59,442 nt of DNA from Kosmotogales bacterium. Lineage in GTDB: Bacteria; Thermotogota; Thermotogae; Petrotogales; Kosmotogaceae. The DNA lies in the NCBI GenBank assembly GCA_030156385.1, contig JASGMR010000005.1:1-59442 (forward strand). Direction: 5' to 3'. This document shows, one piece after another, positions 3,638-59,442 of this stretch (position 1 is the stretch's first letter; the number at the start of each line of letters is the position of its first letter). The notes under the pieces were generated by a model. The model saw nothing but the letters and a program-made list of their open reading frames with translations. It did not search any database and was not told the origin of the DNA. The translations under genes were made by a program, and so were the position numbers.

Positions 3638-4382
3638 TAAGTGGTCTAATATTCAGCACAGAAAGGGTGCTCAGGATGCAAAGAGGTCCAAGGTATTTAC
3701 TAAGGTAATAAGAGAATTGATGGTAGCCGCCAGAGAAGGTGGTTCCGATCCCGATACCAATGCTAAATTGAAGACTGTTATTGAAAGAGCAAAGGCAGCT
3801 AATATGCCAAAAGATACGATGGAGAAGGCTATAAAAAAAGGTGCTGGAGAGCTTGAGGGTGTAATATACGAAGAAGCGATGTATGAAGCTTATGCACCGG
3901 CCGGGGTAGCATTGATGATAAGGGTTTTGACGGATAACAAGAACAGAACCGCCCAGGAAGTAAAACATACTCTTTCAAAATATGGTGGAAGTCTGGCCAG
4001 CCCTGGAAGTGTTGCCTTTAACTTTGAAAGAAAAGGCTTAATAACGGTGCCCATTTCTGAGATATCCGATATCGAAGAGTTTGAAATGTTGGCCATAGAT
4101 GCGGGTGCTGAAGATTTCAATGAAGATACCGATCCTTTTGAAATAATCGTTAGTCCGGAAACGGTTTCCGATGTAAAAAGTAATCTGGAAGATGCGGGGT
4201 ACAGTACGAGTGCCGTTTTAGCTTATTTACCGAAGAGTACGTCTGTTGTAACCGGTCCAGATGTCGTTAAAGTTTTGAAATTAGTCAATTATTTGGAAGA
4301 TAACGATGACGTTCAGGAAATTTTCGCTAATTTCGATATATCGGATGAAGAAATGGAAAAAGCGATGGATGAATTAGGTTAA
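3624..4382 (+). CDS. yebC: YebC/PmpR family protein
   Basis: The protein has 252 residues, the normal length. The N-terminus MSGHNKWSNIQHRKGAQDAK is the family signature, followed by FTKVIRELMVAAREGG and the central block EAYAPAGVALMIRVLTDNKNRT. YebC proteins were first described as DNA-binding regulators, and some are now described as translation factors that help ribosomes at proline-rich stretches. They act in the cytoplasm. AGGAGG (3610-3615) lies inside the end of the upstream gene, so translation of the two is probably coupled. A hairpin with a T-run follows the stop. Confidence 0.96.
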   Translation: MSGHNKWSNIQHRKGAQDAKRSKVFTKVIRELMVAAREGGSDPDTNAKLKTVIERAKAANMPKDTMEKAIKKGAGELEGVIYEEAMYEAYAPAGVALMIRVLTDNKNRTAQEVKHTLSKYGGSLASPGSVAFNFERKGLITVPISEISDIEEFEMLAIDAGAEDFNEDTDPFEIIVSPETVSDVKSNLEDAGYSTSAVLAYLPKSTSVVTGPDVVKVLKLVNYLEDNDDVQEIFANFDISDEEMEKAMDELG

Positions 4383-52289: not shown

Positions 52290-53492
52290 ATGGCGGAATT
52301 TAAATATGAAGTAATCAATCCATCGGGGAAAGTGGAAAGGGGAAGAATTTCAGGAAGAACCGAGTTAGAGATCATTCAAACATTCAGCAGACAAGGATAT
52401 ACCGTTAGAAATGTTTCTGAAATAAGCGGATCTAATGCGGTATCTAATTTTGTTCTTTTTCCTATCAAATTAGAAGAACTGGCTTTGTTTTCAAGGCAGA
52501 TGGCTACTATGATCTCTTCGGGTGTGAGAATAAGAGATGGAATTGAAATTCTTTCTTCTCAGACAACATTTTCCAAAAAATTCAGAAAAATTTTGACACA
52601 AACGGTTATATCTATAGAATCGGGTCAAAGTTTTTATGAAGCTGCCAGCGAATCGGGTGTTTTTGACGATTTCTTTTTAAGCCTTATACAATCTGCCGAG
52701 GAAGGCGGTACACTTGAAGAAAGTCTTGAAAAAATAGCAGAGTATTACGAAGGAAAACAGAGAATCCAAAATAAAATTAAATCTGCAATGGCTTATCCAT
52801 TATTTGTAATGGGATTTGCGATTGTTATGGTTTTTGCTATAGCATTTTTTATATTACCGAATCTTTTATCAGCATTTGGATCTTTATATACCCCGACGGG
52901 AGTAATAAAACTTTTATTGGGGTTAAAAGATTTATTGGAGAATCATTGGCCCATTGTAATACCAGTGGCAATAGGTGTTGTTTTCGTTTTGTTTATTTTT
53001 ATGAAATCCAAATACGGGATGATTGCAAAAGATTTCCTGGGAAATATTTTCCCTCCGGTGAGAAAGTTGAGAAATTTAACTGCGGTTGAGAGATTTTCAA
53101 AGACGCTATCTATATTGGTTTCAAGTGGGGTTGAAATAACCAAAGCTCTGGAGTTATCGGCGAGGGTTACTCAAAGACCAAGAATCATCAAAAGAATGGT
53201 AATTGTAATCGATAGAATTAAAGATGGAGAAGAGTTGAATCGTGCTCTTAGAGAGCAAGATATCTTTCCACCAATTGCCATAAGCATGGTAGCCATAGGT
53301 GAGGAGACGGGGCAACTGGGTGAAGTAATGAGCAAAGTTGCTGAATTTTATGCAGAGCAGGTTGATACGGGTATAAAAGCGCTGGTATCTCTTTTAGAGC
53401 CGTTGATGATAATGTTTGTTGGATTGATGGTTGGATTCATCGCATATTCAATGTACGATGCAATATATTCAATGCAGGGAGCTTTGGCTTAA
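52290..53492 (+). CDS. Type IV pilus/type II secretion inner-membrane platform protein (PilC/GspF)
   Basis: This 400-residue platform protein sits in the inner membrane and passes motor motion to the growing pilus or pseudopilus. It has an N-terminal cytoplasmic segment (FKYEVINPSGKVERGRISG), then two related T2SSF domains (about 68-190 and 270-395) containing ALFSRQMATMISSGVRIRDG and RFSKTLSILVSSGVEITKAL, and three membrane helices. The stop is directly followed by the pseudopilin start in the same frame. The PilB/GspE motor ATPase is not in the window. Confidence 0.94.
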   Translation: MAEFKYEVINPSGKVERGRISGRTELEIIQTFSRQGYTVRNVSEISGSNAVSNFVLFPIKLEELALFSRQMATMISSGVRIRDGIEILSSQTTFSKKFRKILTQTVISIESGQSFYEAASESGVFDDFFLSLIQSAEEGGTLEESLEKIAEYYEGKQRIQNKIKSAMAYPLFVMGFAIVMVFAIAFFILPNLLSAFGSLYTPTGVIKLLLGLKDLLENHWPIVIPVAIGVVFVLFIFMKSKYGMIAKDFLGNIFPPVRKLRNLTAVERFSKTLSILVSSGVEITKALELSARVTQRPRIIKRMVIVIDRIKDGEELNRALREQDIFPPIAISMVAIGEETGQLGEVMSKVAEFYAEQVDTGIKALVSLLEPLMIMFVGLMVGFIAYSMYDAIYSMQGALA

Positions 53493-53873
53493 TTGACATT
53501 AGTAGAATTATTGATTGTTATTTCTATTACAATAATAGGTTTGAGTTTTATGATAATCATAACGACCGGCTTTTATTCAAGAAATTCTATTTTGCTGGAA
53601 AAACAGAGGTTGAATTTATTTTTGGAAGAGTGCAGAGTGGAAGCTAAAGTTTCAATATCGGATATTTATATATATTTTATTCCTGAACAAAAAAGATTTA
53701 TTGCCCAAAATGGTGAATTTATAACATTGAATGATGTAGTGAAAAATGATAATTTAGTCATTAAATATAATATAAGAGGAAGAATAGCGATAATAAATGG
53801 TTCAAGTACTATAAGGTTTTCTGACAATACAGAATTTAAAATTTTACCTGTTACAGGAAGAGTTGTTTTTTAG
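53493..53873 (+). CDS. Pseudopilin-like protein without a leader peptide
   Basis: The 126-residue protein has the N-terminal pilin helix TLVELLIVISITIIGLSF, with Glu at position 5 as in type IV pilins and pseudopilins. It starts at TTG 53493, immediately after the in-frame TAA of the platform gene, so the initiator Met takes the place of the first mature residue (usually Phe) and the basic leader with its Gly cleavage site is missing. The rest (about 30-126) is a small beta-rich head, like minor pseudopilins of the GspH type. AGGGAG (53476-53481) is 11 bases upstream. It may be real or result from a sequence error near 53490. Confidence 0.7.
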   Translation: MTLVELLIVISITIIGLSFMIIITTGFYSRNSILLEKQRLNLFLEECRVEAKVSISDIYIYFIPEQKRFIAQNGEFITLNDVVKNDNLVIKYNIRGRIAIINGSSTIRFSDNTEFKILPVTGRVVF

Positions 53874-53886
53874 AGGAGAGGATTGA

Positions 53887-54903
53887 ATGTTTACTCCAAA
53901 TATCACGGTTATAAATAAAAATGAAGAATACACTGAAATTGTTAGAGCAATAATAAAAAAGAAGAAATTAATTCCTGCATTTAGGGTTCTCAATTTCGGG
54001 AAAGAATCTTTTAAAGAAGCATCGAAAGCTTTTTTTTCTCATAACAATCTACCTGTAGATGAAATAGTTGTAACCAGTATTGATCCGACAAAAATTATTT
54101 ACCAACCCATTGAAATACCCTCGGTGAAGAACATGAAAACATTGCTGAGTATTGCGAATTTTAAAGCTGCTATGCAATTTTCGCTTCCTCCTAAGGAGGT
54201 TCAAATTGATTCAATCAATGGATTTAACAGCATTAAGAAAGGATCTATCATACCAACTTTTGTAGTTGCAAAGAGAGCAACACTTTCAGAATTTGAAAGA
54301 GAAATTATGTCTGCGGGTTTTCCTGCGATTGACATTCTTTCAATAAAACCTCATTCGGTATTGAATCTTATCAACAAAGATTTGACAGCGAAGAATTATA
54401 TTTTATTCGTTGTAGATTATAATTATGCGATGATTTTTATTGTGGAAAATAACGAAATAATAGGAATAAATATTTTTGATGAAGGGTTTGGGGATCTGAA
54501 AAATATTTATCAATGGAAATACAATGAAGACCCATCACTCTTTGAAAGAGAATTGTTGATAGGTAAAAATGAGTTCAGTGAAAAACGTATTGATGAAATT
54601 TCTACTCTGTTATCCGAACAGCTTGGGTATCAAATGAAAATGAATATTCAGAACTCTCTGTCCAATTCTCCAAATATAAAAAAGTCGGATTGGGATAAAT
54701 ATATAGATTTTTATGTTATCGGTCAATCGGAATTATCAACCGAAGTATATTATGAAGCTTTAAACAAATGTTTAATAGAGGATTATAAAGTTTCTATCGT
54801 TCCTATGACAAATCAAAATAAGGGACTGATATCCTATTCAAGCTATGGACTTCTTTTAAGAGGTGGTGAATCATTTGAAAAAAATAAATTTTCTCTTGAA
54901 TAA
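53887..54903 (+). CDS. PilM/GspL-like cytoplasmic assembly protein, divergent
   Basis: The 338-residue protein has no membrane segment and lies directly before a PilN-like gene, the standard place of PilM. The predicted secondary structure and YILFVVDYNYAMIFIVENNEIIG in the middle recall the second phosphate region of the actin-like PilM fold. The N-terminal nucleotide motif of PilM (D-I-G-S-S-S) is not present, so it may not bind ATP, more like the cytoplasmic domain of GspL. The assignment depends mainly on context. Its end overlaps the next gene. Confidence 0.65.
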   Translation: MFTPNITVINKNEEYTEIVRAIIKKKKLIPAFRVLNFGKESFKEASKAFFSHNNLPVDEIVVTSIDPTKIIYQPIEIPSVKNMKTLLSIANFKAAMQFSLPPKEVQIDSINGFNSIKKGSIIPTFVVAKRATLSEFEREIMSAGFPAIDILSIKPHSVLNLINKDLTAKNYILFVVDYNYAMIFIVENNEIIGINIFDEGFGDLKNIYQWKYNEDPSLFERELLIGKNEFSEKRIDEISTLLSEQLGYQMKMNIQNSLSNSPNIKKSDWDKYIDFYVIGQSELSTEVYYEALNKCLIEDYKVSIVPMTNQNKGLISYSSYGLLLRGGESFEKNKFSLE

Positions 54904-55450
54904 GAAAAAAAAGATAAAAATTGGTTCTCTTATTTTGTTTATGGTTATAATGCTTATAATAGTTTTTTTAGGGAAAACTTTGTTCAGTAATTTTTTTGAT
55001 CAAACTTTGAAAACGGAAATTAATGAAAAAAGTATTATCCTTCTGTCACAAAATATACAGATAACTGAAGATTTGAAAAAAGATATTGATACAGTTGAAA
55101 ACGAGATCTTTACTTTGCAAAATATGCAGAAGAGTTTAATAAGAAAATTGACAAATATTGAAAAATCTCTTGATGACAGGAGCTTTGGAGGCAAAGTTAT
55201 AAAAGTTTTCAATGAAATAGTGGGCACAGAATTCGTTTTAGATACGATAATTTCGCAGATAATAATTAATTCGGACAGCGGCGAAATAATTTTTTATATA
55301 TTGAGAGATAATGAAATTGAAGATGAATTAAAAAAACCTGAAAGTTACGAAGATTTGAATATAAGTTTGGATAAAGTCGGAAGCATAGATTATACGGATA
55401 CTTTACAACTGGATTTATATGATCTTAATGTGGGTGATAAAAATGAATAA
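54875..55450 (+). CDS. PilN-like bitopic assembly protein
   Basis: From TTG 54875 the protein has 191 residues. The first residues KKINFLLNKKKK resemble the I-N-L-L-P motif by which PilN binds PilM. A single membrane helix follows (about 17-36), then a coiled-coil stretch (about 50-100) and a small outer domain. GAGGTGG (54860-54866) fits this TTG and not the GTG at 54863 that opens the longer frame. The gene overlaps both neighbours, so the pilM-, pilN- and pilO-like products are probably made together. Confidence 0.7.
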   Translation: MKKINFLLNKKKKIKIGSLILFMVIMLIIVFLGKTLFSNFFDQTLKTEINEKSIILLSQNIQITEDLKKDIDTVENEIFTLQNMQKSLIRKLTNIEKSLDDRSFGGKVIKVFNEIVGTEFVLDTIISQIIINSDSGEIIFYILRDNEIEDELKKPESYEDLNISLDKVGSIDYTDTLQLDLYDLNVGDKNE

Positions 55451-56036
55451 TAATGAAAAAAAAGACTTTAATAATTTTGGTTCAGATAATCTTATGATTG
55501 AAGAGACCCCTTCAAATTTTATTCACTTTGAAAGTGAATACAGAGGCGAACTGGCAAAAAAAATAACATTTTTTAATAAAAAGGGAATTTCGAAAAAAAT
55601 GGCAATTATAATTTTCGTCGTCTTCTCTGCTCTTTTAGTGGGATATTTCTTCTGGTTTTATCTGTATCAGAATTTTCAATATACTTCCGCTCTTATAAAT
55701 AAATTATCTGAACTTGAACAGGAGTTTTATAATTATGAGAAATTAAAAAATCAAATGGATGAACTCATAGATACTTTGGATCAAAAAAGCGATTTGAGTG
55801 CCATCACCAGCCTTTTTGGAATAAATAACAGTCCGGGTAATTATAATGTCAGTTATAAAGGTAGTTCCGAAAATGTTACAGAAATAGTGAAAAAAATATT
55901 CTCTGAGCCAAAAATACAAGTTAATAATATTGAAATTAAGTCAGGATTCGGATTTCCAATTTTACCTAAAAATCTTGAAAGTGAAGGAGCGAATGTCGAA
56001 TTATCAGGGAATTTAACGATATTAAATTTTGATTAA
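55443..56036 (+). CDS. PilO-like bitopic assembly protein
   Basis: From ATG 55443 the protein has 197 residues: a long cytoplasmic part (about 1-53), a membrane helix (about 54-78), a coiled coil (about 83-115, SALINKLSELEQEFYNYEKL) and a small domain to the end. This is the topology of PilO, which pairs with PilN in the inner membrane. The cytoplasmic part is longer than usual. The start overlaps the pilN-like stop and fits GGGTGA in that gene. The ATG at 55419 is inside the previous gene and has no ribosome binding site. Confidence 0.65.
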   Translation: MNNNEKKDFNNFGSDNLMIEETPSNFIHFESEYRGELAKKITFFNKKGISKKMAIIIFVVFSALLVGYFFWFYLYQNFQYTSALINKLSELEQEFYNYEKLKNQMDELIDTLDQKSDLSAITSLFGINNSPGNYNVSYKGSSENVTEIVKKIFSEPKIQVNNIEIKSGFGFPILPKNLESEGANVELSGNLTILNFD

Positions 56037-56051
56037 TATGGGGATGTTTGA

Positions 56052-56516
56052 ATGAAGAGAGTGATTTATTTAACATTAATAATAAGCTTAGCGAGTATTG
56101 TTATTTCAGCAATTTATTTTTTAAATGTGAGTAACTTTATATTTTATCCGGTTCAGGAAATAAACGTTATTTCCAAAAGGATTGATTTTAATAACATAGT
56201 CGAAACAGTTGAATTTCAAGATTATTTTAAGCCTCTTTATTCAAATACCGATAATTTAGTCAGTTCACTTATAAACATTGGTGGCGAAGAGAAAAGAATA
56301 GATTATTTAGGTTTTTTCAAGGTAAATAATATTGATTACGCTTATATAGAAAGTGAGAACGTAAAAAGAAGAGTGAAATCAGGTGATCAGATAAATTTGA
56401 AAAATTCTGATGGAACACTTACAAATTATCTGATTTTTGGTATTACAGAGCAGGTAATTCTTTTGAATGATTTAAATAACGATGAATTTTTAATAGTTAA
56501 GAAAAAAATAAAATAA
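56052..56516 (+). CDS. PilP/GspC-like periplasmic protein
   Basis: The 154-residue protein has one N-terminal membrane helix (about 5-25) without a lipobox, then about 60 linker residues and a beta-rich domain (about 95-154) containing YLGFFKVNNIDYAYIESENV and YLIFGITEQVILLN, which looks like the small domain shared by PilP and GspC that contacts the secretin. Its position between pilO-like and the secretin supports this. PilP is usually a lipoprotein, GspC is not; the missing lipobox is closer to GspC. Confidence 0.6.
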   Translation: MKRVIYLTLIISLASIVISAIYFLNVSNFIFYPVQEINVISKRIDFNNIVETVEFQDYFKPLYSNTDNLVSSLINIGGEEKRIDYLGFFKVNNIDYAYIESENVKRRVKSGDQINLKNSDGTLTNYLIFGITEQVILLNDLNNDEFLIVKKKIK

Positions 56517-56530
56517 ATGGAGTGATATCT

Positions 56531-59442
56531 ATGAAAAAAATGTTTTTAATTATCATTTTAATTTTTTTGTCAGTCATAGTATTATCAGCGAATTCTTTAG
56601 AATCTTTATATCCTATAGTTAATGAAGATAGCGTTGAAATTGATATCGTTGCAAAATCGGAAATTTCTGAAGAGTCGGTTATCTTTCAATCTAATCCTTC
56701 AAAAACGGTTTATTCATTGTCTTTGGAAGATTTTACAGGCAGTGATATGAATTTGCCGTTCAGAGGTGGAGACGTTGAAGGTCTATGGACAAGACAATAT
56801 GAGAACAAATATTCTGTAGATGTTGCTTTATTACTACCTCCGGTCATTGAACCCGAAATAATCATTGAAGGGAATACTATTAAACTCAAATTCTTTGATA
56901 TAGGCATAGGAATTGATATAGACAGGTTTTCCACTTATGGAATGTATTTGGAAGATATTATCAGTTACATATTCAATGAAGTTTTAGACATGTCTTATGT
57001 TATATCTAATTCCGTCAGTAGTTTGCCGGTTTCTGTCGGATTCACTTCTGAAAAAGTGGAAGACGTTTTAAGAAATGTACTCGTATCCCTGGGAGATAAA
57101 ATAGGATACGCATATTTAACCGATGGAACTTTTTATATAGCCAATCCAGATGAAATAAGTAATTTGGTGAATTCTTTCTGGAAAACATATACGGGTGTAG
57201 ATATCATAGATACTGAAGGTGATGAGAGTGTTGAAGACCAGATAAAGAGGATACGGGAAGAACTGCCTATAAACAGTTACATAGAGTATCTGCCAAACGA
57301 TTCTTCTATATTGGCTTTTGGAGATTTGAGAACTCATCTTGTTATATCATCTGCCCTCTCAATTTCGACTAAACAGGAGATATACACCGTACCTGAAGTT
57401 CCGTTATCTGAAACCGTTTATCTGGGAATGGATTTATACGATAAATTCGTTTCAATAGCCAAAAATTTCAATTCATTATTTTTTAATAACGAAGTTGAGA
57501 TCAATGAACTTTCAGATTTCAATCAAATATTGATAGACGGCGAAAGCGAAAAAGTAGATAAAATACTCTCTTATCTTTCTTTATTTGAAGAGATGGTATT
57601 GAATGGAAATGCAAATCAGCAGAGAAAGATGATAACAATAGAGTTGCCCGAAAACTATAAAATCGTCGAGGATGTCATCAATAACAGTAAAGATGGTATG
57701 GAAACCGATGAAAAAACTTTGATCATTGGAAAGGAAGAGTTGACCTACGTAGATTTAATCGTAAAAATGGTCGAATTATTTTTAAACGATACGGAAATAA
57801 TAGTTGATAAATCATTTGAGGGAATCAGAAGTATTACCTTCGGTGTTCCTTCTTTTGCAGAAGACGTTTTTAAGGAAATAGTAGAAGACTTAAAAGAAAA
57901 ATCCATGAATATAGATTACAGCTTTGTGAATTCGATCGAGCCTTTCAACGAAGATATTTTTGAAAGTGTAAGACAGATCACAGGGATTATTATAGAACCT
58001 TTAGGTGAAAATTCTTTCATTTTGAAAGGGGATAAAAGTACGATAAAAATAGCCAGAGACATGATTGAACAGTTTTCAAATACTCCCTTAAAGTTGTTTA
58101 AATACACTTATTATGAACTGCCTGATGGTGAATCGTTCGAAACTGCAGAGAAGATCCTTGAAAATTATTTTGTGTTTAAAGGTCTTGGAGAAGATGATTA
58201 TACGCTTGATTTAACCGGAGATAATTTGTTGTATGTTGTGGCACCGGAAAACTATTTAGATGAAGCCGTTTCACAACTTGATTACTACAAGCCATATATT
58301 ACGTCCAAGGTGTATAAAGATATAGTTCCCACATACAAGGAAATAATTGTGGAGTTTTCAAATGATGAAATCAAAAATTTGATCACACAGCTGTCTTTTC
58401 AGGTTGAGGTTCTTGATATGGGAGATAGAAGGATAATAATCGGACCCGAAGATCAAGTCACTGAACTGGATAGAATATTGAGAGAACTTTCAAAGATGAA
58501 TGAAACACAGCAAGAAACGAATAATTCCTCGGAAACAACAACCACAGATTCCACTAAAACTACCACGGATATTCCTGTTTCATCGTCTAAAACTTTTGTG
58601 GTTGTAGAAAATTTGGTAGATGTGAATTCGCTTGATCCACTCTTTAAATCTATGAATGTGGAAGTTGAATTCATTCCGCTGGAAAGTAAAACTGTAATGT
58701 ATGGAACTGAATACGACGTAAATAGGGCAAATTCGATCTACGAGCAGGTCGGAAAACTCTTTGTGAAGGAAGGAAAAACTTTCTTTTTAATGGAATTGGT
58801 TCCGGGAACCGATATAGATAAGGTCAATGACTTGTTGAAAGAATTGGAAATTGATGCTCAGATATCACAAATAGAAGGTCAATTGGTTATCATCGGTTTG
58901 GAAGAAGAGGCGTTAAAAGCGAAGGAACTCATAGACAGTATAAAAGATAATATCGATCCGGATATCGATCAAAAATACTATGAAATAACTCAGGTTCCGA
59001 CATATACTGATATAGATAATTTGAATGAATCGTTGAAACAGTTGAATATAAACGCGGAGATCATTAAAGTTCAATATGAAAAATCGCTTGATTCGGAAAC
59101 CGAAACAACGATATCTTCGAGTGACACCGAATCTGAATCCAATCAATATATAAAAAGTTCAAATTATAGTTATGCCAATACTTTATCGGTTATGGTTGTG
59201 GGTACGAAAGATGGAGTAACACAAGCAATGGAACTCCTGAATGGGTTAACTCCGAAGGAAGAGGAGAAAATCCTGATTGTGAAAACTTTCAAAATAATAG
59301 AAGAGAGGACATCAATAACGATTCTGGAAATGAAAGACCTGTATGAAAGACTGGGAATAGGAGTCGAAGGAATAGAGATAGGCGGAAAGAAAGTCCTCAT
59401 AGGAACAGAAGAAGAGATAGGAAAGGGAGAAGAAGTACTGAA
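56531..59442 (+). CDS. Very long secretin (PilQ/GspD-like), 3' end cut off
   Basis: The frame starts with ATG 56531 and a signal peptide (MKKMFLIIILIFLSVIVLSA-like), and stays open for 970 codons to the window edge. Residues 138-209 look like an N0/STN domain. From about 520 there is a series of small alpha/beta repeats of 60-75 residues (about 523-590, 593-655, 689-746, 746-805, 813-907 and 912-970), each ending with a strand such as RIIIGPEDQ or LVIIGLEEE followed by a helix. These fit secretin N1-type domains. Ser/Thr-rich linkers lie at about 657-688 and 852-875. The beta-barrel gate would lie beyond the window. Usual secretins have three or four such domains. Confidence 0.82.
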   Translation, partial: MKKMFLIIILIFLSVIVLSANSLESLYPIVNEDSVEIDIVAKSEISEESVIFQSNPSKTVYSLSLEDFTGSDMNLPFRGGDVEGLWTRQYENKYSVDVALLLPPVIEPEIIIEGNTIKLKFFDIGIGIDIDRFSTYGMYLEDIISYIFNEVLDMSYVISNSVSSLPVSVGFTSEKVEDVLRNVLVSLGDKIGYAYLTDGTFYIANPDEISNLVNSFWKTYTGVDIIDTEGDESVEDQIKRIREELPINSYIEYLPNDSSILAFGDLRTHLVISSALSISTKQEIYTVPEVPLSETVYLGMDLYDKFVSIAKNFNSLFFNNEVEINELSDFNQILIDGESEKVDKILSYLSLFEEMVLNGNANQQRKMITIELPENYKIVEDVINNSKDGMETDEKTLIIGKEELTYVDLIVKMVELFLNDTEIIVDKSFEGIRSITFGVPSFAEDVFKEIVEDLKEKSMNIDYSFVNSIEPFNEDIFESVRQITGIIIEPLGENSFILKGDKSTIKIARDMIEQFSNTPLKLFKYTYYELPDGESFETAEKILENYFVFKGLGEDDYTLDLTGDNLLYVVAPENYLDEAVSQLDYYKPYITSKVYKDIVPTYKEIIVEFSNDEIKNLITQLSFQVEVLDMGDRRIIIGPEDQVTELDRILRELSKMNETQQETNNSSETTTTDSTKTTTDIPVSSSKTFVVVENLVDVNSLDPLFKSMNVEVEFIPLESKTVMYGTEYDVNRANSIYEQVGKLFVKEGKTFFLMELVPGTDIDKVNDLLKELEIDAQISQIEGQLVIIGLEEEALKAKELIDSIKDNIDPDIDQKYYEITQVPTYTDIDNLNESLKQLNINAEIIKVQYEKSLDSETETTISSSDTESESNQYIKSSNYSYANTLSVMVVGTKDGVTQAMELLNGLTPKEEEKILIVKTFKIIEERTSITILEMKDLYERLGIGVEGIEIGGKKVLIGTEEEIGKGEEVL

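Follow-up and report, generated by a model that had tools for sequence, protein, structure and literature searches.

Secretins with about 30–60 N-type domains at the end of the type IV pilus operon in Kosmotogaceae

In the family Kosmotogaceae of the Thermotogota, the secretin of the type IV pilus carries about 30–60 N-type domains. Few outer-membrane channels are as large as secretins. A sequence-only reading of one stretch of DNA (hereafter the window, 59,442 nucleotides in full) had proposed that a cut gene at its end encodes a secretin in which the chain of such domains is unusually long. This observation was confirmed, and it turned out to be an understatement for Kosmotogaceae: the gene is the last of a pil operon, the barrel is found in the same frame in its orthologues, and the modules fold as N-domains.

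The window is one whole contig of a 91%-complete draft genome consisting of 138 contigs. The reading frame starts with ATG at 56531 and runs without a stop codon up to 59440, where the contig ends, giving 970 aa. GTG at 56522 is an alternative start, and ATG 56531 was preferred in view of the GGAG Shine–Dalgarno-like site at 56520. The expectation that the frame stays open for at least 970 residues with no visible gate domain was borne out, and the Pfam barrel (PF00263) was not detected in the visible 970 aa. The gene and its upstream neighbors were assigned as follows.

52290..53492, forward strand: pilC, inner-membrane platform (Pfam T2SSF, E 3.5e-57; NCBIfam PilC, E 1.5e-70)
53493..53873, forward strand: minor pilin-like gene (NCBIfam ComGD-like, E 1.7e-4)
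53887..54903, forward strand: pilM-like gene, supported weakly by sequence (NCBIfam PilM, E 0.022) and by its position and size
54863..55450, forward strand: pilN-like gene (195 aa, one N-terminal membrane segment; position and size as in relatives G038 and G012)
55419..56036, forward strand: pilO-like gene (205 aa; position and topology; place kept in relatives)
56052..56516, forward strand: pilP-like gene (154 aa, directly upstream of the secretin; position)
56531..59440, forward strand: giant type IV pilus secretin (PilQ) gene, 5' part, cut by the contig end (open frame and homologues)

The pilN, pilO and pilP assignments are by position and topology only. The order of the operon and the sizes of its genes are similar in relatives, and PilN, PilO and PilP are of ordinary size and not enlarged. 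Genes for PilB-type and PilT-type ATPases, told apart by size only, are located elsewhere in the same genome. The locus is a type IV pilus operon, in which the cut gene occupies the pilQ position as the last gene.

In the AlphaFold2 model of the window protein (mean pLDDT 66.7), a beta-rich domain at the N-terminus is followed by an N0-like domain and by nine units of the beta-alpha-beta-beta-alpha type. The profile of the family repeat matched this protein seven times, with E values of 1e-9 to 1e-13 for four of the matches. The layout was as follows.

56531..56584, forward strand: signal peptide (MKKMFLIIILIFLSVIVL; N-terminal helix in the model)
56591..56896, forward strand: putative AMIN-like beta-rich domain (model with eight to nine strands in a row)
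56918..57193, forward strand: putative N0-like domain (secondary structure of the model; Foldseek match to the EscC periplasmic domain, 3gr5)
57368..57601, forward strand: N-type module 1 (beta-alpha-beta-beta-alpha in the model)
57623..57910, forward strand: N-type module 2, with an inserted segment (model)
57911..58078, forward strand: N-type module 3 (model; weak Pfam Secretin_N, E 0.007)
58088..58300, forward strand: N-type module 4 (model)
58331..58522, forward strand: N-type module 5 (module profile, E 3e-9; model)
58487..58591, forward strand: Ser/Thr-rich linker 1, aa 656–690 (47–53% Ser+Thr)
58589..58768, forward strand: N-type module 6 (module profile, E 7e-13)
58775..58948, forward strand: N-type module 7 (module profile, E 4e-11; model)
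58976..59242, forward strand: N-type module 8, interrupted by a Ser/Thr-rich insert (two partial profile matches, profile positions 4–24 and 27–45; model)
59285..59440, forward strand: N-type module 9, cut by the contig end (module profile, E 2e-9; 48% identity to a stretch of the K. olearia array)

With nine modules in the model, the earlier count of at least six was correct but low. Two Ser/Thr-rich linkers had also been described; both stretches exist and the first is a linker, but the second (about 59069–59182, aa 850–887) is an insert inside module 8, between strands 2 and 3, which is odd in comparison with the usual linkers between domains.

The AMIN-like domain gave a Foldseek match to the B2 domain of meningococcal PilQ (4aqz, TMt 0.54), and a search of the window protein for Pfam AMIN gave no match. 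Pfam Secretin_N was matched by 13 of the 14 aligned homologues (best 1.6e-10). Repeated beta-alpha-beta-beta-alpha units were also obtained in an AlphaFold2 model of six consecutive modules from K. olearia (mean pLDDT 72.8); both models are monomers from shallow alignments and carry no information on oligomers. Fold searches with the two models, including Foldseek, ranked secretins such as PilQ, GspD and XcpQ first or close to first, and KH and ACT-type domains were also among the matches, as expected for the module fold. Direct search of PDB sequences with the window protein or its alignment as the query gave no meaningful match. Models and PDB fold matches were used to check whether the modules fold as something else, and the fold was that of secretin N-domains. 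The modules of the array are predicted, with good support, to be N1-type, KH-like N-domains of secretins.

In its own draft, no PF00263 barrel was found across the 138 contigs, and a search with the downstream half of the K. olearia protein detected no module-bearing piece besides the window gene. The 3' part of the gene is absent from the draft, most likely because repeats break assemblies; in draft genomes of relatives, the homologous gene is likewise mostly split at contig ends. Homologues of the window protein were detected in 20 of the 60 relatives searched and in all 16 genomes of the same family, most of them at E 1e-96 to 1e-136; the K. olearia protein of 2,631 aa is 35% identical over aa 1–849 (E 4e-136). 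Unbroken homologues in Kosmotogaceae (Kosmotoga and Mesotoga-like) are 2,631, about 3,890–3,914 and 4,560 aa in length. They are encoded by single open frames in six genomes, of 2,635 (K. olearia), 3,900 (G007 and G010), 3,908 (G004), 3,921 (G012) and 4,575 (G009) codons from stop to stop. The relatives were checked for a full-length protein devoid of a C-terminal barrel, and the Pfam PF00263 barrel was present at the C-terminus of the full-length orthologues in the same frame (E 1e-39 to 1e-43). By way of these orthologues, the secretin identity of the window gene is as good as established, and the gene presumably shares the full length and the barrel of its relatives.

In the complete proteins, gapless module arrays begin near residue 658 and continue up to the C-terminal core; they comprise 23 modules in K. 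olearia, 42 in each of the four proteins of about 3,900 aa and 52 in G009. The modules were counted with an iterative repeat profile and a second profile for the 'PGW' subtype, and non-overlapping windows were used for module alignment. The median spacing was 66–68 aa, and there were no gaps longer than 55 aa. When about five divergent modules (from the window model), the N0-like domains and the last N1 are added to these arrays, the total number of N-type domains is about 30, 50 and 60, respectively. A profile of the last 420 aa matched meningococcal PilQ (4av2) from N0 through the barrel (E 5e-45), with PilQs as the best PDB profile matches, and this core also matched isolated N0 structures of PilQ and HofQ. 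The NCBIfam PilQ and GspD profiles both matched, at scores below cut-off. The C-terminus is formed by a complete, ordinary PilQ core (N0–N1–barrel), to which the giant array is added on the N-terminal side; another N0-like domain lies at the distal end of the array.

Within the 4,560-aa secretin of G009, at aa 2145–2530 or thereabouts, a near-identical tandem block of 268 aa with four modules was observed, a sign of recent unequal recombination; this near-duplicated block shows a mechanism by which the array grows. In the finished genome of K. pacifica, the secretin frame is broken at about 1896518–1897540 (L070:8519-9541) by an antisense module segment of about 1 kb, flanked by identical direct repeats of 227 bp. 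The inverted segment is probably a misassembly (454/Illumina, PMC5217533), with a real rearrangement as the alternative. An invertible switch was also considered for K. pacifica but found no support, as re-inversion restored one frame for no breakpoint pair in the range tried.

Known PilQ proteins (N. meningitidis, 4av2/9sh1; Thermus thermophilus) resemble the Kosmotogaceae protein in the pil operon position, a putative AMIN-like N-terminus, the N0 and N1-type modules and the N0–N1–barrel core. In contrast, they are about 700–900 aa long with 2–6 N-type domains, against 2,631–4,560 aa and about 30–60 domains in Kosmotogaceae, where an N0-like domain, present also in the window protein, is added at the far N-terminus. 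GspD, which has three N1-type domains and is encoded in the T2SS operon, has the module fold and the barrel in common with the Kosmotogaceae protein, but the score of the NCBIfam GspD profile (132 bits) was well below the cut-off of 351. For PilQ of Thermus, in which six stacked rings span a wide periplasm (PMC5745081, PMC4463427), six N rings were already called an unusual number (PMC5745081). PilQ proteins of Thermotogota outside Kosmotogaceae (about 1,285 aa in Thermotoga, up to 1,620 aa in others) share the operon, its gene order (where this was read) and the C-terminal core with Kosmotogaceae, and some show N-terminal homology at 25–29% identity. They are estimated by length to contain about 8–14 modules beyond the common parts, and differ in being without a long homogeneous array (0–4 confident profile matches).

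No secretin frame longer than 1,620 codons was found among the matches listed for Thermotogota outside Kosmotogaceae (103 genomes in the phylum). The framing for Thermotogota in general was too broad: the extreme length is confined to one family, and the main secretins of its sister family are of ordinary size (about 630–910 aa). Among 389 high-completeness genomes (about 320 outside the phylum), a sample and not a census, the best 150 or so listed secretins did not exceed 1,172 codons. A search of the open-access literature found no description of secretins of comparable size.

As the probable explanation, we propose that the Kosmotogaceae protein is a PilQ with an N-type array grown by tandem duplication, which assembles as a very long periplasmic tube for the type IV pilus. 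Tandem duplication of N1-type modules would have enlarged the periplasmic part to about 30–60 domains ahead of the ordinary PilQ core. Most likely 12–15 subunits would assemble, and the repeated modules, presumably every one of them, would stack as rings into the tube. Through it, the pilus would pass from the inner-membrane platform (PilC/N/O/P) to an outer membrane held unusually far away by the toga, and the tube could bridge a wide or ballooned polar periplasm. At 2.5–4 nm per ring, as inferred from the six-ring Thermus channel of about 35 nm (PMC4463427), 50 rings would give a tube length of about 125–200 nm. Subunits of 4,560 aa, if 13–15-meric, would form a complex of some 6–7 MDa. The N0 domain usually faces the inner membrane. 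As the N0-like domain is duplicated here, with one copy adjoining the barrel and one at the far N-terminus, the long arm cannot be assigned a topology with certainty.

In T. maritima, the coiled coil of OmpA1 (316 aa) keeps a distance of about 50 nm between the toga and the cytoplasmic membrane, ballooned regions aside (PMC3387000). As a proxy only for the width of the gap, we used the length of the frame that encodes the best OmpA-type SLH protein. This toga spacer varies almost two-fold between genera in frame length (316–592 aa; longest in Mesotoga-like genomes, genera g24, g31). For 64 species in 24 genera, secretin frame length and OmpA frame length were correlated with a Spearman coefficient of 0.84, and the genus-level r within families was 0.87 (permutation p 5e-5), in a comparison devised after the first data had been seen and among genera that are not fully independent. 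Without Kosmotogaceae the two values were 0.83 and 0.88, and an earlier analysis of 21 species with measured stalks gave a similar picture. These results support the idea that secretin length follows periplasm width in Thermotogota, an adaptation already voiced as speculation for Thermus (PMC4463427).

Kosmotogaceae are located far above this trend. Mesotoga-like species have an OmpA stalk of about 68 nm with about 50 domains, compared with 67 nm and about 14 domains in genus g31; overall, the family has about three to four times more modules than the OmpA trend requires, and a stack of all modules would exceed the OmpA-set gap two- to three-fold. Given this overshoot, a simple account in which the giants bridge the OmpA gap is insufficient. 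The proposal that extra domains bridge a wide periplasm thus stood in part: the correlation over 24 genera supports it indirectly, but the ordinary gap does not suffice for Kosmotogaceae, and the bridging role is plausible but incomplete as an explanation. The giant tube may be needed at a wider site such as the ballooned pole, its modules may have a different packing, or a large part of the arm may lie outside the tube. More tentatively, Kosmotogaceae may possess the longest secretin channel known, a tube of 50–60 rings and 100–200 nm crossing the ballooned toga space, and Thermotogota may tune the number of rings to a periplasm width set independently by the OmpA coiled coil; this wider claim we hold to be possible but doubtful.

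The overshoot relative to OmpA also fits with a flexible tether or anchor, in which rings are formed only by the C-terminal PilQ core and the N-terminal array is a bead chain to the peptidoglycan or the inner membrane, bound by the end that carries the AMIN-like and N0-like domains, across a distance that varies with ballooning. Such a tether agrees with the complete canonical core having its own N0 at the C-terminus, with the Ser/Thr-rich inserts in the window protein and with the array being N-terminal to the core, where other PilQs have peptidoglycan-binding AMIN domains. We nevertheless consider it rather unlikely, since the modules belong to the secretin N type, which forms rings, and follow one another closely in the complete proteins, at about 67 aa and with no long linkers between them, and since 12–15 parallel copies would favor lateral packing.

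Near-neutral expansion of the repeat by slippage or recombination between modules, yielding length without specific function, is still less probable. The order of module subtypes is identical across the four Mesotoga-like species with 42 modules, at 77–94% identity. The G010 and G007 genes differ at 25% of synonymous and 2.9% of non-synonymous sites (dN/dS 0.096), indicating purifying selection, and constraint was seen in every 300-column segment of the alignment. These features, together with the covariation of length with OmpA across the phylum, argue against drift in length, even though the near-identical four-module (268-aa) duplication in G009, the assembly breaks driven by repeats and the variation between genera from 2,631 to 4,560 aa are in its favor. 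The same purifying selection on the frame, and the fact that six independent assemblies, single-contig genomes among them, each contain an unbroken frame of similar length, make it very improbable that the long frames are artefacts of assembly or annotation, arising from collapsed or misjoined repeats, as the inverted segment inside the K. pacifica gene and the draft contigs ending within the gene might suggest.

Within this one phylum, the secretins form a natural series of module number from almost none to about 50. On this series the speculation on length adaptation (PMC4463427) can be tested, and OmpA length serves as an independent measure. Many Thermotogota genomes also contain a second, short secretin-like frame (about 360–420 aa), located far from the long one.
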